From the NCBI RefSeq assembly GCF_033170385.1, contig NZ_CP126170.1, forward strand, positions 2,070,001 through 2,134,000: a DNA stretch of 64,000 bases, read 5' to 3'. The notes below the pieces were generated by a model. It was not told the origin of the DNA. It was given only the letters and a program-made list of their open reading frames with translations, and did not search any database. The DNA comes from Xanthomonas rydalmerensis (lineage in GTDB: Bacteria; Pseudomonadota; Gammaproteobacteria; Xanthomonadales; Xanthomonadaceae). Positions within the stretch are counted from its first letter, which is position 1. Every line of letters starts with the position of its first letter. Shown piece after piece: positions 30,272 to 41,068 of this stretch. Made by a program: the position numbers and the translations under genes.

Positions 30272-31165
30272 TCAGGCAACGCCTGCGCCACCCGTCGCGC
30301 CGAACACTTCGCCGGTCAGGTAGCTGCCTTCCTGGCTGGCAAGCAGCACATACAGCGGCGCGATTTCCACCGGCTGGCCCGGACGCTTGAAGTGCGTCTT
30401 CGAACCGAACTGGGTGACCGCGTCCATCGGTTGACCGCCGGAGGACTGCAGCGCGGTCCAGAACGGGCCCGGGGCCACCACGTTCGCCCTCACGCCCTTG
30501 TCGCTCAACTGCGCCGCCAGCGCCTTGGTGTAGGCGACGATGCCGGCCTTGGTGGTCGCGTAGTCGAGCAGGATCGCTGAGGGATCGTAGGCCTGGATGG
30601 ACGCGGTGGTGATCACCGCGGCGCCCGGCGGGAGGTGGGGGACCGCGGCGCGGCAGATCCAGTGCATCGCGTAGAGATTGGTCTTCAGCGTCTTGTCGAA
30701 ATCCTCGTCGCTGACGTCCCCAATTTCTTCCCGATACTGCTGCCGGCCCGCGTTGATCACCAGGATGTCCAGGCCGCCCAGGCCGGCCACGGCTTTCTCG
30801 ACGAGCTCCGCGCACCATTGCCGATCGGTGATGTCGCCGGGCAGACTGATCGCCTTGCGTCCTTCGGCCTCGATGAGGGCGATCACCTCCTGTGCGTCCG
30901 ACGTTTCCTCGTCCAGGAAGGAGATCGCCACATCGGCGCCTTCGCGCGCGAACGCGATGGCCGCGGCGCGGCCGATGCCGCTGTCGCCGCCGGTGACCAG
31001 GGCGCGGCGGCCGGTCAGCTTGCCCGCGCCGCGATAGCTCGTCTCGCCGTGGTCGGGAACCGGGTCCATGTCCGAGGCCTTCCCCGGAACCGGCTGCGGC
31101 TGCCGCGGAAACGGCGGCTTGGGATATTGTTCGCGCGGGTCCTGCATCTTCAGTCGATCGTTCAT
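30272..31165 (-). CDS. SDR oxidoreductase with N-terminal extension (YghA-like)
   Basis: 297 residues. About 50 residues of Pro-rich lead (QYPKPPFPRQPQPVPGK, DMDPVPDHGETSYRG) precede a classical SDR: TGGDSGIGRAAAIAFAREGA, INAG, Ser in TTASIQAYD, YATTK as the catalytic Tyr-Lys, and GPFWTALQSSG. This extended form matches YghA/general-stress-protein-39-like NADP-dependent oxidoreductases. It overlaps the GH15 gene by four bases (ATGA) and lies downstream of it, so the two are translationally coupled. The substrate is unknown; association with a glucan-cleaving enzyme suggests sugar or polyol metabolism or osmotic stress. Confidence 0.9.
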   Translation of the reverse strand: MNDRLKMQDPREQYPKPPFPRQPQPVPGKASDMDPVPDHGETSYRGAGKLTGRRALVTGGDSGIGRAAAIAFAREGADVAISFLDEETSDAQEVIALIEAEGRKAISLPGDITDRQWCAELVEKAVAGLGGLDILVINAGRQQYREEIGDVSDEDFDKTLKTNLYAMHWICRAAVPHLPPGAAVITTASIQAYDPSAILLDYATTKAGIVAYTKALAAQLSDKGVRANVVAPGPFWTALQSSGGQPMDAVTQFGSKTHFKRPGQPVEIAPLYVLLASQEGSYLTGEVFGATGGAGVA

Positions 31166-32958
31166 CGTGTCTTCCTCTTCTTGGCGTGTGGACGGAGTTT
31201 TACCGGGTTAGTTGTCGTGTTCTCGATGGTCGACATCGCCATGATCTGGGCGAGATGGCTCAGTCCTTGCGGAAAGTTCCCCAGGAAAGCGCCACTGTGC
31301 GGATCGACCATCTCGCTCAACAGGCCGTTGCAGCGATCGAGCGCGGCATTGAGTTGGGCCAGCCGTTTCCTGGCCTTGGCTTTCTGTCCCAGGCGGGCAT
31401 AGGCTTCGGCGATCCAGTAGGAGCAGGCGACGAAGCAACCTTCTTCCTGCGGCATGCCGGAGTAGCGGTAATGGAACGCGCCGGCCCCCAGCGCGCGGTC
31501 GATCGCGTCGAGCGTGGCCAACAAGCGATCCTTGCCGTCGAAACGGAAGCGCGCGGCCAACGCCACCGACGCATCCAGCTTGTCGCTGCCCGGATACATC
31601 ACGAACGCCTGCTGCGCGTCCGACCAGCAGTGGACTTCGATCCAGGTCTTGATCCTGTCGCGCTCCCGTTCCCAGCGATCGCGACACGTGGTCGGCAGTT
31701 GGCCCTGGTCGGCCAATTCCACGGCTCTGGCCAGCGCCTGCCAGCAACTCACCTTGGACATGGTGTAGTGCTGCAACTCGGGCAATTCCCAGATCCCCGA
31801 GTCGGCCTTGCGCCAGTGATCGGCGCATTGGTCGGCAAGGCGCGACAGCAGTTCGGCGCTGGACGCGTCCAAGATGTTGCCGCGACTCACGAAGCAATAG
31901 GCGGTCTCGAAGATGTCGCCGTAGATGCCGTGCTGGTGTTGCCCGCCGGCGAGATTGCCCTTCACCACCGGCACCGTGTTGCGGTAGCCGGCGGCCTCCA
32001 GTTCGGTGACGTCGGGAACCAAGCCGCCGTCCAGGGTGAACACGACTTTCGGGCCGTGCTTTCGCAGTTGCCGGATCAGCCAGGTGAACGCCGCCTTCGA
32101 TTCCGCTTCCAGGCCCGCGGCCAGAAACGCCTGGATGGTGTAGCCGGCATCGCGAACCCAGGCGTAGCGATAGTCGAAGTTCTTGTCGCCGCCGATCCGT
32201 TCCGGCAGCGACGTCGTCGCGGCCGCGGCGATGGCACCCGAGGGCGAGTACAGCAGCAACTTGAGCGCAAGCGCGCTGCGCACGAAAAAGTCCCGGCCGT
32301 CGCGGGGGAAGGTCACGTTCTTCGCCCACGCTCGCCATTCCTTGTCGGTCAGATCGATGCGGCTGTCGATTTCCTCGATGGTGGGAGCGACCAGCGGCTC
32401 GTCTTCGCCGACGACCAGGGCGATCGTCGCGCGTTGCCCCTTCGCCACGGTGATGTCGCCGCGCGCGCCGTGGTCCGACCACGCGCACCTCAGCCTGTCG
32501 TCATGGATCATGACGCCGAGCAGGCGGTCGACATGGAACACCGTGTGCGGGCCGATCGCCGCGCAGTAGGGGCTGGCGTTCTGCGCCCGCAAGCTGAACT
32601 TCAACTCCAGGCGGAAGCGCATTTTCCCGCGCTGGCACTCGATCCGCCGTGCAAGTTCGCACCACGGCAGGCGCCCCGCATGCCCGCTGTTGAGCGACTC
32701 GGTCAGCGTGGCCTGTCCGGATGCGGTGGTGAACGTGGTGACCAGGACATTGCTGTCTTGCCGATAGTGTCGCTCGGTGCTGAACGGCTGGTCCGGGGCG
32801 AGGACGAAGTAGCCGCCTTCCTCGGCGTCCACCAGCCGGTCGAACAGTGGCGCACTGTCCATGTTGGGGGCGCACCACCAATCGATGGAGCCGTCCGCGC
32901 CGGTCAGCGCGACCGAACGTCCTTCTCCAAGCGCGCCGTACTGCTCGATGGGCAACAC
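31162..32958 (-). CDS. Glycoside hydrolase family 15 protein (glucoamylase/trehalase-like)
   Basis: About 598 residues from the GTG at 32958. The N-terminal beta-sandwich starts IEQYGALGEGRSVALTGADG and SIDWWCAPNMDSAPLF, as in GH15 proteins of the trehalase/glucoamylase type. The catalytic (alpha/alpha)6 barrel has the DYRYAWVRDAGYTIQAFL block. The general-acid and general-base glutamates are expected near SGIWELPE and in the late PQEEGCFVACSYWIAEAY block. It ends in a basic tail, LRPHAKKRKTR. The frame stays open to an ATG at 33207, which would add about 83 low-complexity residues. No signal peptide is seen in either form, so it is probably cytosolic. First gene of a coupled pair with the SDR gene. 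Confidence 0.88.
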   Translation of the reverse strand: MLPIEQYGALGEGRSVALTGADGSIDWWCAPNMDSAPLFDRLVDAEEGGYFVLAPDQPFSTERHYRQDSNVLVTTFTTASGQATLTESLNSGHAGRLPWCELARRIECQRGKMRFRLELKFSLRAQNASPYCAAIGPHTVFHVDRLLGVMIHDDRLRCAWSDHGARGDITVAKGQRATIALVVGEDEPLVAPTIEEIDSRIDLTDKEWRAWAKNVTFPRDGRDFFVRSALALKLLLYSPSGAIAAAATTSLPERIGGDKNFDYRYAWVRDAGYTIQAFLAAGLEAESKAAFTWLIRQLRKHGPKVVFTLDGGLVPDVTELEAAGYRNTVPVVKGNLAGGQHQHGIYGDIFETAYCFVSRGNILDASSAELLSRLADQCADHWRKADSGIWELPELQHYTMSKVSCWQALARAVELADQGQLPTTCRDRWERERDRIKTWIEVHCWSDAQQAFVMYPGSDKLDASVALAARFRFDGKDRLLATLDAIDRALGAGAFHYRYSGMPQEEGCFVACSYWIAEAYARLGQKAKARKRLAQLNAALDRCNGLLSEMVDPHSGAFLGNFPQGLSHLAQIMAMSTIENTTTNPVKLRPHAKKRKTR

Positions 32959-33234
32959 GCCATCGGTGCGGTCGGCGCTGTCGGTCGCGCGGCGTCGCCG
33001 GGCTGTGCTGGGCACGCGCTCAGTCCCTGCGCCGACACGCGCAGTGACAGCGCTGGCGCGTCGTCGATTCCAGGCTGACGTGTCGATGGAACATGGAGAA
33101 GGCGCGAAGGGGAGGGCAGCCCGACGGTAGAGGCCTGTGTGCCGACACGCGGTGAAGACGGCATGCGCTTGCTGGCCTGCACGTGGCGTGGACGAGTGCT
33201 GGTCCATCGTGCGTGACCGTCATCGAGGTGCGCC

Positions 33235-34593
33235 ATGGGTAAGCCGGTCCTGTACTTCCTGCACGCCCTCGGCTCGAGCGGTCGTGAGTGGTCTTCGGTG
33301 ATCGAGATTCTGCAAACGCGCTTCGACTGCATCGCATTGGATATTCCCGGCTTCGGCAATGCGCCGGCGTTGCAACGCTCCGATGTGGAGGCGCTGGTCG
33401 ATTGGTTCGCAGGCGAGGTTGCGCGGGATGCGCCCCACTGCTGGTATGTCGTGGGCCACAGCATGGGCGGGAAGATCGCCACCCTGGCCGCCGCACGCGC
33501 ACGCGACGGCATGGCAGGCCTCGCGGGCCTGGCCGGGGTCGTCCTGGTGGCCGCATCGCCGCCCGCGCCCGAGCCGATGGACGAATCCCGGCGACAGACC
33601 ATGTTGTCCTGGTTCGACGCCGCTGGTCCCACACGGCAACAGGCCGAGCAGTTCATCGACGACAATTGCGCGGCGCCATTGCCGACACCGCCGCGCAATG
33701 GTGCCGTCGACGATGTCCTGCGCAGCACCGCGCGCGCATGGAACGCCTGGCTCACGCATGGCAGTCGCGAGGATTGCGCCGCGCAAGCCGGCTGCATCGC
33801 GGTGCCCGCCCTGGTCGTGGCCGGTAGCGAGGATGGCGATCTCGACGAGGCGGCGCAACGCCGCTGGAACCTGCCGCATTATCGCGACGCCCACCTCACC
33901 GTGGTGGCGCAAGCGGCGCACTTGATTCCCTACGAGCGACCGCAGGCGCTCGCGGACTTGATCGCCGCGCATGTCGACGGCACCGCGGCACGCCGTCTGC
34001 CCGACGACTTCGTGGCGTTGCTCAACGCGGAGCGTGTCGCGCCACAGATCAGGAAAACGCTGCTGCATCGCCACGCCGGGCCATCCAGTGCGGAAGCAGG
34101 GGTGTTGAGCGAGCGGCAGTCGACCACACTGGCCGCGGTGGTCCAGCGCGTCCTCGACGGTGCGGGCGACGCCAAGGACATCGCGCGCCGCATCGACGTC
34201 GATCTCGCGAACGCGGTGGGAGACGGGTGGCGGTTCGCCGACCTTCCGCCCGATCGTCTCGCCTGGCCGCTGGGGCTCGATGCGCTGGACGCGCTGACGG
34301 GCGGGTTCGCCGCCTTGCAGGCACAGGAGCAGGATCGCTGGCTGCACGCCATCGCCCTGCGCGACGCGGGCGATTGTGCCGATTGTGGATGGAGCGCGGC
34401 GCAGCTTGCCTCCTGGTTCGAAGACGTGCGCGCCGAAACGGTGCGGATCTGGACTAGCCTTCCGGTCACCATGGTGGCGTTGGGCTACGACGGCTTCGCC
34501 GTGGGCGGATTGGGCGCGGGCAGCCCTGGCTATCAGGAGACGGCCGCCGACCGGCGCGAGGCCTGGCAGCTGCGGCCCAAGGCGCAACCATGA
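33235..34593 (+). CDS. Alpha/beta hydrolase fused to a gluconate 2-dehydrogenase subunit 3-like domain
   Basis: 452 residues in two parts. Residues 1-245 form an alpha/beta hydrolase: YFLHALGSSGREW oxyanion region, VVGHSMGGKIA with nucleophile Ser76, acid in AGSEDGD near 200, and His in QAAHLIPYE near 228. Residues about 255-450 are a helical domain ending in RIWTSLPVTMVALGYDGFA and GSPGYQETAADRREAW, which resembles the small subunit of FAD-dependent gluconate/glucose dehydrogenases. That subunit normally comes as a separate protein next to a GMC flavoprotein, and a GMC gene indeed follows, overlapping by four bases. There is no Tat or Sec signal. Inference: the tail binds the GMC subunit and the hydrolase acts on a linked lactone or ester. 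The family call for the tail is moderate. Confidence 0.78.
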   Translation: MGKPVLYFLHALGSSGREWSSVIEILQTRFDCIALDIPGFGNAPALQRSDVEALVDWFAGEVARDAPHCWYVVGHSMGGKIATLAAARARDGMAGLAGLAGVVLVAASPPAPEPMDESRRQTMLSWFDAAGPTRQQAEQFIDDNCAAPLPTPPRNGAVDDVLRSTARAWNAWLTHGSREDCAAQAGCIAVPALVVAGSEDGDLDEAAQRRWNLPHYRDAHLTVVAQAAHLIPYERPQALADLIAAHVDGTAARRLPDDFVALLNAERVAPQIRKTLLHRHAGPSSAEAGVLSERQSTTLAAVVQRVLDGAGDAKDIARRIDVDLANAVGDGWRFADLPPDRLAWPLGLDALDALTGGFAALQAQEQDRWLHAIALRDAGDCADCGWSAAQLASWFEDVRAETVRIWTSLPVTMVALGYDGFAVGGLGAGSPGYQETAADRREAWQLRPKAQP

Positions 34594-36113
34594 GCGGCGC
34601 ATCGCCTGCCGCGGTGGATGCCGTGGTGGTCGGCAGCGGCGCCGGCGGCGGTCCGCTCGCCGCGCGATTGGCCCAGGCCGGCGTCTCGGTGGTGGTGCTG
34701 GAGGCCGGCGCCGCATTTGGTCCGGACGCGCACCGCGCGGACGAGCTGGCGACGGATATCTACTGGATGGAAGAGCGCCTCAGCGGCGGGCGGACGCCGA
34801 CGGCGTTCGGCCCGAACAATTCCGGCGCCGGGCTGGGCGGATCGACGCTGCACTGGGGTGCGTTCTGTCCGCGCCCGGACCCGCGCGACCTGCAACTGCG
34901 GACGCAGACCGGCCAGGGCGAAGACTGGCCGATCCCGCACCGGGAACTGCAGTCCTACATCGAGCGCGTCGAACGCTTCATCGGCGTGTCCGGGCCGGCC
35001 GTCTATCCGTGGGATGGCGAGCGCTGCTATGCCTTTCCGCCCGCCCAGCGCAACGCCCCGGCCGAGGCGATGGAGCGCGGCTGCCGTGCCCTCGGCCTCA
35101 CCGCCGCCGATGCACCGGCGGCGCTGGTCACCCGTACGCACCAACAGCCGCACTGGGGCACGCGGGTCGCCTGCAACAATTGCGGTGCCTGCCATCAGGG
35201 CTGCAGCAACGGCGCCAAGGTCAGCGTCGACACGACCTGGTTGCCGCTGGCACGGGCGCATGGCGCCGATCTGCGCACCGATTGCCGCGTGGTCGGGATC
35301 GAGCGCGACGGCCGTGGTGCGGTCAGCGGCGTGGTCTACCGGCAGGGCGAACGTGAGCTGCGCCAGCGTTGCGCGGCCTTGTTCCTGTGCGCAGGCGGCG
35401 TGGAAACCCCGCGCTTGCTGCTGAACCTGGGACTGGCCAACTCCAGCGGCCAGGTCGGGCGCAATTTCATGGCGCATGTCGCTACCCAGGTCTGGGGCAC
35501 GTTCGACATGGACATGCGCATGAACCGCGGCTACCCGTCGTCGCTGATGAGCGAGGACATGCTGCGCCCCGCGCATGCCGGCTTCGCCGGGGGCTATCTG
35601 ATCCAGAGCCTGGGCGTGCAGCCGGTGACGCTCGCCAACACGCTGGCGCGCGGCGCCGGACGCTGGGGCGCCGCGCTGGCGCGGACCATGACGCGCTACA
35701 ACCGCCTGGCCGGCATCGGCATCAATGGCGAATGCCTGCCGCAGGACGCCAATCGCCTGACGCTCGCCGACGAGCGCGACGCCTTCGGCCTGCGCAAGGC
35801 GCGGGTCGACTTCAGCTATGGTCCCAACGAACAGGCGCTCGATGCCCACGCCAGGCGCACGCTGCAGGCGATCTGGGAGGCGGCCGGCGCCGAGGACATC
35901 TTCGCCGCCGCGCGCTCGGCGCACACGCTCGGCACCTGCCGGATGGGCCGCGATCCCGCGCAGGCCGTGGTCGATCCGGATGGCCGTTCGTTCGACATCG
36001 ACAATCTCTACGTCTGCGACAACTCGGTGTTCCCCAGTGCGCTGGCGGCCAATCCGGGCTTGACCCAGATGGCGCTCGGCCTGCGCACGGCGGAGCGGTT
36101 TCTCGCGCACTAG
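34590..36113 (+). CDS. GMC-family FAD oxidoreductase with Cys-rich (Fe-S type) motif
   Basis: 507 residues. The FAD-binding dinucleotide fold is at the N-terminus (DAVVVGSGAGGGPLAARLA), followed by NNSGAGLGGSTLHWGAF. The C-terminal GMC block AHTLGTCRMG holds the catalytic His, and the last FAD contact is CDNSVFPSALAANPGLTQMA. A CNNCGACHQGC motif near residues 195-205 parallels the 3Fe-4S binding Cys of FAD glucose/fructose/gluconate dehydrogenases. This suggests a dye- or quinone-linked dehydrogenase rather than an oxidase. The likely substrates are sugars, sugar acids or polyols. It starts within the stop of the fusion gene (ATGA), and the SDR gene follows after 36 bases. No export signal is seen. 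Confidence 0.9.
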   Translation: MSGASPAAVDAVVVGSGAGGGPLAARLAQAGVSVVVLEAGAAFGPDAHRADELATDIYWMEERLSGGRTPTAFGPNNSGAGLGGSTLHWGAFCPRPDPRDLQLRTQTGQGEDWPIPHRELQSYIERVERFIGVSGPAVYPWDGERCYAFPPAQRNAPAEAMERGCRALGLTAADAPAALVTRTHQQPHWGTRVACNNCGACHQGCSNGAKVSVDTTWLPLARAHGADLRTDCRVVGIERDGRGAVSGVVYRQGERELRQRCAALFLCAGGVETPRLLLNLGLANSSGQVGRNFMAHVATQVWGTFDMDMRMNRGYPSSLMSEDMLRPAHAGFAGGYLIQSLGVQPVTLANTLARGAGRWGAALARTMTRYNRLAGIGINGECLPQDANRLTLADERDAFGLRKARVDFSYGPNEQALDAHARRTLQAIWEAAGAEDIFAAARSAHTLGTCRMGRDPAQAVVDPDGRSFDIDNLYVCDNSVFPSALAANPGLTQMALGLRTAERFLAH

Positions 36114-36149
36114 GCGCTTGCTTCCCCTTTATCCAACGAGGAAATCGAC

Positions 36150-36953
36150 ATGGACCTTGGAATCAACCAGCGCATCGCCCTGATCAGCGGCGCCGACTCG
36201 GGCATGGGCAAGGAAACCGCGCGGCAGCTATTGCAGGCCGGCGTCCGCGTGGCCATCACCGACCGTGCCGACGGCACGCTCGATGAGGCCCTATCCGAAC
36301 TGTCGAGCCTGGGCGAGGTGATCGCCGTGGCAGGCGATGTGACGCGCGCAAACGAGGTGGCGGACATCTGGGCGCAGGTCCGGGCGCAGTTGGGCGACCC
36401 GGATATCTACGTCAACGCGGCCGGCGTCACCGGCGCGACCGGCGACTTCCTGGACGTGAGCGATGCGGGGTGGCTCGAAACGCTGGACATCAACCTGATG
36501 GGCGCGGTGCGGATGTGTCGCGAAGCGATTCCCGCGATGCGCCGAAACGGCTGGGGGCGCATCGTCCTGTTCGCGTCCGAGGACGCCGTGCAGCCTTACG
36601 TGGACGAGCTGGCCTATTGCGCTTCGAAGGCCGGGATCCTGAGCCTCGCCAAGGGCCTGTCCAAGGCCTATGGCGGCGACAAGGTGCTGGTCAATACGGT
36701 GTCGCCCGCGTTCATCCATACCCCGATGACCGACGCGATGATGCACAAGCGCGCGAAGGAGAAGGGGGTGACCTTCGATGAAGCGGTGTCCTCGTTCCTG
36801 GACGAGGAACGCCCCGGCATGGTCCTCAAGCGGCGCGGTCGGCCGGAAGAGGTGGCGGCGGCGGTCGCGTTCCTCTGCTCCGAGCGTGCCAGCTTCATCA
36901 ATGGTGCCGGCATCCGGGTCGATTCGGGGTCTGTGCAGACCATCGCGGGCTGA
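36150..36953 (+). CDS. SDR-family oxidoreductase
   Basis: 267 residues with a classical SDR layout: SGADSGMGKETARQLLQAG, DVTRANEVADIW, VNAAG, Ser in LFASEDAVQPY, and YCASK as the catalytic Tyr-Lys. The end VAFLCSERASFINGAGIRVDSG is the standard SDR finish. It resembles 3-oxoacyl-ACP reductase/glucose dehydrogenase-type enzymes; the substrate is unknown. An ACGAGG-type site precedes the ATG at 36150. It is the third gene of the operon with the hydrolase fusion and GMC enzyme, and could reduce or oxidise their product. Confidence 0.9.
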   Translation: MDLGINQRIALISGADSGMGKETARQLLQAGVRVAITDRADGTLDEALSELSSLGEVIAVAGDVTRANEVADIWAQVRAQLGDPDIYVNAAGVTGATGDFLDVSDAGWLETLDINLMGAVRMCREAIPAMRRNGWGRIVLFASEDAVQPYVDELAYCASKAGILSLAKGLSKAYGGDKVLVNTVSPAFIHTPMTDAMMHKRAKEKGVTFDEAVSSFLDEERPGMVLKRRGRPEEVAAAVAFLCSERASFINGAGIRVDSGSVQTIAG

Positions 36954-38314: not shown

Positions 38315-38398
38315 GTCTTGAGACAGGCCACGCTTAAGCTGGCTTCACTCCGGTGCTGCCCCTGCGGCGCCGCGGTTCCCCCAGCATGGAGCAGCGCT

Positions 38399-41068
38399 AT
38401 GGCAAGCAGACAGCCGCGTGGCCGCAGCAGCGGGCGCGCGCGGAAAGCACCGGTCACGTCCTCCGCGTCCACGCCCGGCAAGGCGCCGGTCAAGGCATCG
38501 GCAAAATCCGCCGCCAAGCCGACAGCAACGCCGCGCAAGACGACAGCGGGCAGTGCCCGTGCTGCCAAGGCGGCGAAGACGCCGGCACCGGCAGCCACAT
38601 CGACGAAGGCAACTGCATCGGCACGTGCCGATGCACTGCGCAGGTCCAACGTCACGACTCCCGGCGCGAGCGGACGCGCTACCGCGACATCCGCCGCCAC
38701 GGCACCGGCCGGCACCGCACCGCGGCCCAAGGCCACGGGCGAAGGCTCGCTGGCGCAAGGGCGCGCACGTACGGTCGTCTACATCCATGGCATCGGCAAC
38801 AAGCCGCCGGCCGAGGTGTTGCGCTGCCAGTGGGACCGCGCCCTGTTCGGCCGCGCGATGGGCGAGCGCACGCGCATGGCCTACTGGGTCAATCGCGAGC
38901 GCTATCCGTCGCCGGAACCGGGCGATTGTCAGGATCAGGACCGCGGCCCGGTGTTGAACCAGGCCGAGCAGCGCGTGCTCAGCGCGCTCGGCGTGGTGCC
39001 GCAATTGGCCGATCTGCGCCAGCTCGCCGACACGTTGGCCGCCAGCGACGCCGAGCGCGCAAGGCTGCAGCAACTGCTGGACGAGGTGGAGACGGCCGCG
39101 CCGGCACCGGCTGCGGCGGCCGCCGAGGTGCATGCGCAGGGCGTGATCGACGTGGTCAACCGCGCGCTGCTCAAGCTGATCTCCGCGGCGCTGCTGCAGG
39201 ACGTGCACGACTTCTTCTTCGTGCCGGCGCGGCACACGCAGATGCGCGAGAGCCTGCTGCAGCGCATCCGCGCCGGCGGCGGCCCGTTCGTGGTGATCGC
39301 GCACAGCCAGGGCTCGCTGATCGCCTACGACGTGCTGCGCGAGTTGCAGCCGCAGGACTGCGAGGTCTCCCTGCTGCTCACGCTCGGCTCGCCACTAGGG
39401 CTGCCGGTGGTGCGCAGCATGTTCAAGGAGTGGACCGGTACGCCGAAGCTGCCGTTTCCGCCCTGCGTGGCGCGCTGGGTCAACGTCGCCGAGCGGCGCG
39501 ACCCGGTGGCGCTGGACGACGATCTGAGCGACGACATCGCCGATGCCGGCGGGCGCTTCCAGAACATCGCCGGGTCGAAGATCAACCCGGATTGGCAGCA
39601 CAACCCGCATTCGGCCGCCGGCTACCTGTCCATCCCCGACGTGCGGGCCGAGGTGCGGCGCGCGGTGGGCGTGGGCTTCGATCAGCCGATCGCGCATCCG
39701 GTACTGATAAAGGACCTGTCCGACCAGTTGGAGGCGCGCGCGCCGGACTATCGTCACGAGGTGCTGATCGAACTTGAGAAGCTGTCCGATGCCGGCGATC
39801 CGGCGCAGCGCAAGCATGACCTGATCGCCGCATTGCGTACGCTCGCCCAGGCGTCCACCGGCCTGCACGACGAGGCGCTGGATGCGCAGATCGAACTGGA
39901 GGACACCATGCAGCGCTACGTGTCGGCGCGGCTGACCCGGTTCGAGATCGAAAGCCTGCGCGAGCGCTATCGCGACCTCAACCTCAAGCGCCTGTGGCGC
40001 GATGCCGGCAAGCGCGCGCTGATCTACCAGTCGCGCAGCACGATCCAGGTGGACGCGGCGCAGGTGGCCTATCGCGCGCTCGGCGCCGGCATCGGCTGGG
40101 CGGTGCTGGACAGCGGCATCGCCGCGGCGCATCCGCACTTCCACAGCGCCGGTCAGCCGTCGACCGTGCTTGCCCAGTGGGACTGCACCCAGCGCGGGCG
40201 CCCGCGTGCGTTGCGTCCGGGCGAGGCCGGCTTCGACACGCTCGACGGCAACGGTCACGGCACGCACGTGGCCGGCATCATCGCCGGGCAATGCGCCGCG
40301 CCGTTGCCGGGCGTGCCGACCTCAGCGCCGCTGCAGTTCGCCGGCATGGCGCCGCTGGCGCGGCTGTACGGGCTGAAGGTGCTGGACGACGACGGCAATG
40401 GCCGCGATTCCTGGATCATCAAGGGCGTGCAGCAGGTGGCCGAGCTCAACGAGCGTGCCGGGGGACTGGTGGTGCACGGGGTCAACCTGAGCCTGGGCGG
40501 CTACTTCGACGCCGAGAGCTACGGCTGCGGCTTCACCCCGCTGTGCAACGAATTGCGCCGTCTCTGGCGGCAGGGCGTGGTGGTGGTGATCGCGGCCGGC
40601 AACGATGGCCTGGCCTGGCTGATGCAGGGCGATGGCGAGGCCTATCCGCTGAACCTGGACCTGAGCATCGGCGACCCGGCCAACCTGGAGGAATCGCTGG
40701 CGGTGGGCTCGGTGCACAAGAGCAGCCCGCACAGCTACGGCATTTCGTATTTTTCGTCGCGCGGCCCCACGGCCGATGGCCGCTACAAGCCCGACCTGGT
40801 CGCGCCGGGCGAAAAGATCCTGTCGGCGCACCATGGTTATGTGGTCGAGGATCCAGGCACCTGGATGGTGGAAATGAGTGGCACCAGCATGGCCGCGGCG
40901 CATGTCTCGGGGCTGATCGCCGCGTTCCTGTCGGTGCGCCGCGAGTTCATCGGCACCCCGGACCGGGTCAAGCAACTGACGCTGGCGCAGTGCCTGGACC
41001 TGCAGCGCGATCGCTACATGCAGGGCGCCGGCCTGCCCAGCTTGATGCGGATGCTTGGCGGGACGTGA
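38399..41068 (+). CDS. Lipase-like domain fused to S8 (subtilisin) serine peptidase
   Basis: 889 residues. Residues 1-115 are an Ala/Lys/Thr/Arg-rich disordered lead without a signal peptide. Residues about 120-430 form an alpha/beta-hydrolase-like domain: VVYIHGIGNKPP, and VVIAHSQGSLIAYD with the putative nucleophile Ser near 303. Residues about 545-885 are a subtilase with an apparently complete triad: Asp in AVLDSGIAAAHP near 570, His in GNGHGTHVAGI near 619, Asn in IAAGNDGLAW, and Ser in MSGTSMAAAHVSG near 827. No propeptide or secretion signal is visible, so it may act in the cytosol. The target is unknown. ATG at 38399 is the first Met of the arginine-rich lead; upstream Met codons overlap the tmRNA promoter. 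Confidence 0.85.
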   Translation: MASRQPRGRSSGRARKAPVTSSASTPGKAPVKASAKSAAKPTATPRKTTAGSARAAKAAKTPAPAATSTKATASARADALRRSNVTTPGASGRATATSAATAPAGTAPRPKATGEGSLAQGRARTVVYIHGIGNKPPAEVLRCQWDRALFGRAMGERTRMAYWVNRERYPSPEPGDCQDQDRGPVLNQAEQRVLSALGVVPQLADLRQLADTLAASDAERARLQQLLDEVETAAPAPAAAAAEVHAQGVIDVVNRALLKLISAALLQDVHDFFFVPARHTQMRESLLQRIRAGGGPFVVIAHSQGSLIAYDVLRELQPQDCEVSLLLTLGSPLGLPVVRSMFKEWTGTPKLPFPPCVARWVNVAERRDPVALDDDLSDDIADAGGRFQNIAGSKINPDWQHNPHSAAGYLSIPDVRAEVRRAVGVGFDQPIAHPVLIKDLSDQLEARAPDYRHEVLIELEKLSDAGDPAQRKHDLIAALRTLAQASTGLHDEALDAQIELEDTMQRYVSARLTRFEIESLRERYRDLNLKRLWRDAGKRALIYQSRSTIQVDAAQVAYRALGAGIGWAVLDSGIAAAHPHFHSAGQPSTVLAQWDCTQRGRPRALRPGEAGFDTLDGNGHGTHVAGIIAGQCAAPLPGVPTSAPLQFAGMAPLARLYGLKVLDDDGNGRDSWIIKGVQQVAELNERAGGLVVHGVNLSLGGYFDAESYGCGFTPLCNELRRLWRQGVVVVIAAGNDGLAWLMQGDGEAYPLNLDLSIGDPANLEESLAVGSVHKSSPHSYGISYFSSRGPTADGRYKPDLVAPGEKILSAHHGYVVEDPGTWMVEMSGTSMAAAHVSGLIAAFLSVRREFIGTPDRVKQLTLAQCLDLQRDRYMQGAGLPSLMRMLGGT

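Follow-up and report, generated by a model that had tools for sequence, protein, structure and literature searches.

The 64,000-nucleotide stretch of Xanthomonas rydalmerensis DNA analysed here (the window; contig NZ_CP126170.1, positions 2,070,001 to 2,134,000) carries on its forward strand, at 33235-34593, an open reading frame (ORF) for a 452-residue protein in which an alpha/beta hydrolase and a helical tail of the PF13618 (Gluconate_2-dh3) family are combined in one polypeptide. It is followed by genes for a GMC family flavoprotein and an SDR family dehydrogenase, an arrangement noticed in an initial annotation of this DNA and confirmed here as a whole. The system is real and conserved, a variation on a dehydrogenase complex of a known kind. 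Domain identity, gene order, the existence of fused and separate versions and co-occurrence of the genes give good support to the predicted cytosolic dehydrogenase-plus-hydrolase complex of that annotation, and we consider complex, shared pathway and cytosolic location, taken jointly, to be likely. The fusion and the GMC protein very probably associate physically, and there is similarly strong reason to think that hydrolase and GMC enzyme act in the same pathway. The features of the two genes are as follows.

33235..33984, forward: alpha/beta hydrolase domain, residues 1-250 (Abhydrolase_1)
33460-33462, 33832-33834 and 33919-33921, forward: codons of the triad Ser76, Asp200 and His229
33985..34593, forward: helical tail, residues 251-452 and stop codon (PF13618 match, profile-profile match, all-helical AlphaFold2 model)
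34114-34470, forward: PF13618 match within the tail (Pfam)
34590..34593, forward: ATGA, overlap of fusion stop and GMC start, four nucleotides long as initially annotated
34590..36113, forward: GMC flavoprotein of the flavin adenine dinucleotide (FAD)-dependent glucose dehydrogenase/fructose dehydrogenase (FDH) type (Pfam, nearest solved relatives)
34851..34853, forward: codon of His88, which aligns with His105, the FAD-linking residue of the Burkholderia cepacia FAD-glucose dehydrogenase (BcGDH)
35172..35204, forward: Cys195-X5-Cys201-X3-Cys205, putative 3Fe-4S ligands, spaced as Cys212/218/222 of BcGDH

The hydrolase domain and its tail

In the N-terminal part, Abhydrolase_1 spans residues 4-235 (E 2.3e-19, Pfam), and the catalytic triad consists of Ser76, located in a GHSMGGK motif, Asp200 and His229, in agreement with the complete triad of the initial annotation, which had placed the acid near 200 and the histidine near 228. 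All three are invariant in an alignment of the window's sequence with 21 relatives, picked from 120 listed. Among 65 fused hydrolases the Ser, Asp and His are kept in 64, 63 and 64, respectively, and among the separate hydrolases in 13 of 13; the exceptions are locus L252, where the hydrolase is degenerate, and, for Asp200 only, L017 (loci are prefixed L, genomes G). An AlphaFold2 model of the fusion (pLDDT 89, pTM 0.87), uncertain over the ~30 C-terminal residues, shows the hydrolase followed by an all-helical tail. Fold and Ser-acid-His triad place the N-terminal part among the alpha/beta hydrolases. In the structure comparison, aryl esterases are among the nearest folds by Z and an enol-lactonase lies in the same fold group; the signalling hydrolases RsbQ and DWARF14 are also among the matches, and such resemblance shows no function. 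Assignment as PcaD, MenH or BioH fails the curated NCBIfam cut-offs (57.9 of 255.85, 63.3 of 208.55 and 44.7 of 206.95 bits). Proteins of this type are labelled just 'alpha/beta hydrolase' in public records, and the pairing described here gives them a testable function.

The resemblance of the tail to gluconate 2-dehydrogenase subunit 3, suggested initially, was upheld by a PF13618 match at residues 294-412, with a score (24.3 bits with the full-length protein, 26 with just the tail) that is thin and barely over the curated cut-off of 23.4. Despite this thin score the tail is, judged by its relatives, a real small subunit of the Gluconate_2-dh3 type, because the same gene occurs unfused beside the same type of GMC and then matches PF13618: all 25 stand-alone tails submitted to Pfam did so (best E 5.1e-28; of 27, the near-copy L255 and the fragment L259 were excluded). 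Profiles of fused and separate tails align over 178 columns with a probability of 100 and an E of 1.1e-41. Compared with PDB sequences, the tail profile gave chance matches to unrelated chains only, over short stretches (best E 0.025), and the ordinary small subunit of the same genome likewise found no relative there by sequence (best E 0.062).

The initial annotation had seen no export signal, and this holds. Just six codons lie between an upstream in-frame stop and the ATG of the fusion, hence no leader peptide has been overlooked; none is seen in the sequence, for which no signal-peptide predictor was run. On 19 stand-alone tails (16 from Cytophagales-type loci, and L159, L160 and L162) no twin-arginine translocation (Tat) leader was seen by eye either, with upstream RR pairs in four (L157, L159, L160, L162). 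At the locus, a search for sigma-70-like promoters found none, and the single terminator-like site is fewer than the mean of 1.9 in shuffled sequence and carries no information.

The GMC partner and its distribution

A scan of genome contigs with a profile of the fusion was evaluated for the best 80 of 261 matches. All 16 full-length fusions among these have a GMC gene directly downstream, while the other 64 loci contain the hydrolase domain only; 62 of them lack a GMC, tail or GH15 (glycoside hydrolase family 15) match in the stretch examined, and the remaining two, L025 and L027, carry relatives of the module. Within the window's genus the full fusion occurs in 5 of 20 genomes, each time with the GMC. 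The profile matched 45 of the 249 genomes in the family of Frigoribacterium, and in 44 of these (L252 and L234 included) hydrolase and tail share one frame and adjoin a GMC gene; the 45th, L251, has a tail-less hydrolase beside GH15 and SDR genes. Whether the fusion always sits beside a GMC gene, a point raised by the initial annotation, can be answered from 64 fusion-seeded loci (63 distinct, as L014 and L221 have identical GMCs on contigs of the same length) of Proteobacteria, Actinobacteria and Acidobacteria: in 64 of 64 the GMC gene is adjacent on the same strand, 18-336 nucleotides beyond the end of the tail match. Outside this set one exception, genome G1192, was found through its GMC and has the two on different contigs. 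A 65th fusion, L158, was found via a GMC search and also adjoins its GMC. On plasmids, 57 records match the fusion, four of them with 80% or more of the query covered; in all three of these four that were examined, a 'GMC family oxidoreductase' is annotated that shares four nucleotides with the hydrolase gene, as in the window. The fusion is a conserved family. The fact that 64 of 64 loci share the same GMC neighbour, together with the PF13618 matches of all 25 stand-alone tails, argues that the pairing exceeds chance.

Three loci are possibly decaying or mis-sequenced: L252 with its degenerate hydrolase, L234 with an interrupted tail frame, and L229 with a GMC split over two frames. A 1188-residue open frame in Frigoribacterium was considered as a single hydrolase-tail-GMC polypeptide and rejected, since the GMC match is not in the same frame as the match to hydrolase and tail.

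Separate versions of the same genes are found in the order of Hymenobacter, in which 15 of 148 genomes contain GMC orthologues. In the 16 Cytophagales-type loci, those of these 15 genomes and of G397, a stand-alone tail always lies 15-352 nucleotides upstream of the GMC, and the hydrolase is either within the fetched stretch (10 loci) or elsewhere in the genome (six). At E 1e-35, every one of the 15 genomes of the order that have the GMC also has the hydrolase, as against 1 of the 133 that lack it (Fisher p 1.2e-19, relatedness uncorrected). Two near-identical Acidobacteria loci have four separate genes in the order hydrolase, tail, GMC, GH15. On a GMC tree of 91 of the 93 sequences (L229 and the duplicate L221 excluded, as for the residue counts below), the fused state corresponds to two changes. 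Nine distant GMCs (~420-520 bits; L159, L160, L162, L207, L208, L256-L259) are preceded by a separate tail gene, with no hydrolase in the surrounding stretch; because of these loci, and with the tree rooted on them, tail and GMC are probably the older unit, which the hydrolase would have joined in one branch. In the distant group a conserved ORF of ~330 residues directly precedes the tail in eight loci (L159, L160, L162, L207, L208, L256-L258), and a gene for a thiamine-diphosphate enzyme occurs in seven (L159, L160, L162, L208, L256-L258).

The window's GMC belongs to the BcGDH/FDH subgroup of GMC catalytic subunits. Its nearest solved relatives are FAD-glucose dehydrogenase and fructose dehydrogenase, with pyranose and C-glycoside oxidases as the next fold group. 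According to PMC6719666, His105 of BcGDH links the FAD and Cys212, Cys218 and Cys222 are the 3Fe-4S ligands. The corresponding His88 of the window's protein is kept in 91 of 91 GMCs, as are His445 and Asn488, and the three candidate cluster ligands are present within CNNCGACHQGC at residues 195-205, the motif that the initial annotation had called cluster-type. All three cysteines occur in 73 of the 91 sequences, none of the three in 18, and one or two alone in no case, which supports their acting as one cluster; the fourth cysteine, Cys198, is variable (Arg in 27 and Ala in 2 of the 73). A haem c at the CXXCH-like CGACH was also considered and rejected by inference, as there is no leader and the motif is absent there in relatives such as L025 and L153. 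With these ligands the window's GMC would appear to be a dehydrogenase rather than an oxidase; the initial label 'oxidase' is unproven, although the 18 relatives without the ligands qualify this correction.

The 18 cysteine-less GMCs all come from Microbacteriaceae (L235, L237-L250, L212, L219, L252) and read SLIE, TVIE or ASTD at positions 195, 198, 201 and 205, with His88, His445 and Asn488 retained. They show that the dehydrogenase can do without the cluster, in bacteria that retain the fusion, and they constitute a natural test of its role. The loss corresponds to two changes on the GMC tree, while a one-clade test does not reject a single origin (approximately unbiased test, p-AU 0.09).

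Neighbouring genes and the proposed reaction

Three further genes flank the pair.

36150..36953, forward: SDR-family dehydrogenase (adh_short_C2, E 3.5e-53), with a >200-bit relative in 12 of 93 loci
31162..33207, reverse: divergent GH15 gene with trehalase-like N-terminal part (Glyco_hydro_15, E 3.5e-44; TREH_N, E 1.1e-9); its annotated start is uncertain, as homology begins near 32982
30272..31165, reverse: SDR gene, sharing four nucleotides with the GH15 gene (NCBIfam PRK06128, 514.7 bits, cut-off 481), with a >200-bit relative in 45 of 93 loci

The GH15 protein matches the GH15 and TREH_N Pfam families and is below the NCBIfam cut-off for a TreH1 trehalase (261.4 of 820 bits). The initial proposal of a link to GH15, which might supply the substrate, stands as a recurrent association: of 100 loci, in Proteobacteria, Actinobacteria, Acidobacteria and Bacteroidota, 26 have GH15 (tblastn, E 1e-15), whereas none of the 62 hydrolase-only control loci does. 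The window's genome has three GH15 genes, and if one simply assumes a background rate of 1% per 17 kb, 26 of 100 would be very unlikely, but the loci are related and of unequal length. A leaf plasmid of Comamonadaceae also has divergent GH15 and SDR genes, in the order opposite to that of the window. A Pfam scan of six neighbouring proteins found no cytochrome family; the search did not extend to the rest of the genome.

Other genes recur at the surveyed loci. A GH1-like gene of ~445 residues follows the GMC in 15 Cytophagales-type loci (L025, L144-L152, L154-L157, L161), an old-yellow-enzyme-type (Oxidored_FMN) gene occurs in 7 of 100, in Sphingomonas and Bacteroidota (L005, L006, L025, L027, L144, L145, L161), and a gene of the Dps type (DNA starvation/stationary phase protection) adjoins the fusion in 3 of 100 (L158, L277, L280), two of which are Sphingomonas plasmids. 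In the window, a 916-residue ORF at 38318-41068 on the forward strand has a serine-hydrolase-like first half and, by eye, the subtilisin-like motifs HGTHVAGI and GTSMAAAHVSG in its second.

In the reading we prefer, the fusion would be a bifunctional subunit. Its PF13618 tail would bind the GMC protein encoded next door in the manner of the gamma (hitchhiker) subunit of FAD-glucose dehydrogenase, and its N-terminal part would add a hydrolase of the same pathway to the complex. As there is no Tat signal, the complex would remain in the cytosol. The GMC enzyme would oxidise a sugar or sugar-like alcohol, with electrons passing from FAD via the 3Fe-4S cluster to an acceptor; a sugar is a reasonable, moderately favoured candidate for its substrate. 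Oxidation of an aldose at C1 by a dehydrogenase yields a lactone. Because of this, and since the nearest folds include esterases and an enol-lactonase, the simplest coupling is that the hydrolase opens the lactone product of the GMC enzyme, which we propose tentatively as its most likely reaction. The joining of the hydrolase to a small subunit whose flavin dehydrogenase is encoded by the next gene points to a pathway, probably related to sugars, of which two steps are kept together inside the cell, and the system would be a natural oxidation-plus-hydrolysis complex.

Several observations weigh against this proposal. Ten of the 30 fused tails tested in Pfam (out of 65) miss an E of 0.001 for PF13618, and in the predicted GMC model residues 43-91 and 196-209 have a pLDDT below 50. 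The 18 relatives described above lack the Fe-S cysteines, and 74 of 100 loci lack GH15. In L252 tail and GMC persist beside a degenerate hydrolase; the GMC of G1192 (L253) has no tail match within 17 kb, and the hydrolase-tail frame of this genome, 468 residues long, is located on a different contig; in G472 the hydrolase is present without a GMC. Finally, in L027, L251 and a Roseomonas plasmid a tail-less hydrolase neighbours GH15, and the stretch contains no GMC (within 13 kb for L251; for L027, no match at 1e-40 in the genome). Hence, the hydrolase is not always dependent on the GMC and is part of a wider GH15/SDR module, in which, speculatively, an SDR may replace the GMC.

The order of the two reactions might be reversed, with the hydrolase splitting an ester or acylated glycoside and thereby freeing an alcohol for oxidation by the GMC enzyme. 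The aryl esterases among the nearest folds would suit this, and all of the gene-association evidence is equally compatible with it; nothing specific speaks against it, but an enol-lactonase belongs to the same fold group, and we consider this order somewhat unlikely. The recurrent glycoside hydrolases, GH15 and the GH1-like enzymes, could also point to a GMC enzyme resembling glucoside 3-dehydrogenases, whose keto-glycoside product is later split or rearranged, in which case the substrate of the hydrolase would not be a lactone. Glucoside 3-dehydrogenases have such small subunits, and pyranose and C-glycoside oxidases, as the next fold group, agree with such chemistry, but the nearest solved relatives are FAD-glucose dehydrogenase and fructose dehydrogenase; we consider keto-glycoside formation improbable. 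A sensor or scaffold function of the hydrolase domain, with the tail merely acting as a folding partner of the GMC protein, would account for L252 and fit the fold matches to RsbQ and DWARF14 and the adjoining Dps genes. The retention of the triad in 63-64 of 65 fused and all separate hydrolases, however, makes a non-catalytic role very unlikely.

Comparison with known systems

In the literature looked through, including portions of PMC6719666, PMC10551460 and PMC12959163, a hydrolase-PF13618 fusion is not described; publication elsewhere is possible. The closest known systems are the gamma-alpha complex of BcGDH (6a2u; PMC6719666) and Gluconobacter FDH, with which the window's system has in common the GMC subunit with CX5CX3C 3Fe-4S ligands and FAD-linking histidine, and a partner subunit of the PF13618 type. 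PMC6719666 describes subunits of this type as the Tat hitchhikers of periplasmic dehydrogenases, enzymes with a use in glucose sensing. In the window, by contrast, the partner has no Tat leader and is fused behind a hydrolase instead of being a separate hitchhiker, Cys213 of the BcGDH inter-subunit disulfide is replaced by Asn196, and no multihaem cytochrome c gene is among the six neighbouring proteins scanned. If the proposal is correct, a non-exported branch with a catalytic enzyme placed before the subunit shows a role of PF13618 beyond export. It is conceivable, though doubtful, that in this signal-less, cytosolic Fe-S GMC branch the gamma-like subunit, which lies over the 3Fe-4S cluster in BcGDH, became a dock for a pathway enzyme, and that some Microbacteriaceae lost the cluster ligands as a unit and kept the docked hydrolase; the small subunit would then be a coupling module, not an export or cluster-guarding device, and the electron exit would have been rewired in the cysteine-less branch.

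The same genome also offers an ordinary counterpart. The sole other PF13618 gene found in it (C1:3221744-3222130, L201) encodes a 190-residue protein, and here, too, a PF13618 small subunit lies beside another GMC gene. This subunit is separate, has an apparent Tat leader (MERRELLKMIFAATG..., by eye) and has other neighbours, so that the window's version differs from it as the apparently non-exported type. Bifunctional lactonase fusions of the PcaDC type provide a further comparison. The window's protein is far under their curated cut-off (83.7 of 390 bits), and its partner is a dehydrogenase subunit; it resembles them in being a Ser-Asp-His alpha/beta hydrolase whose C-terminus is joined to what is probably another protein of its pathway.

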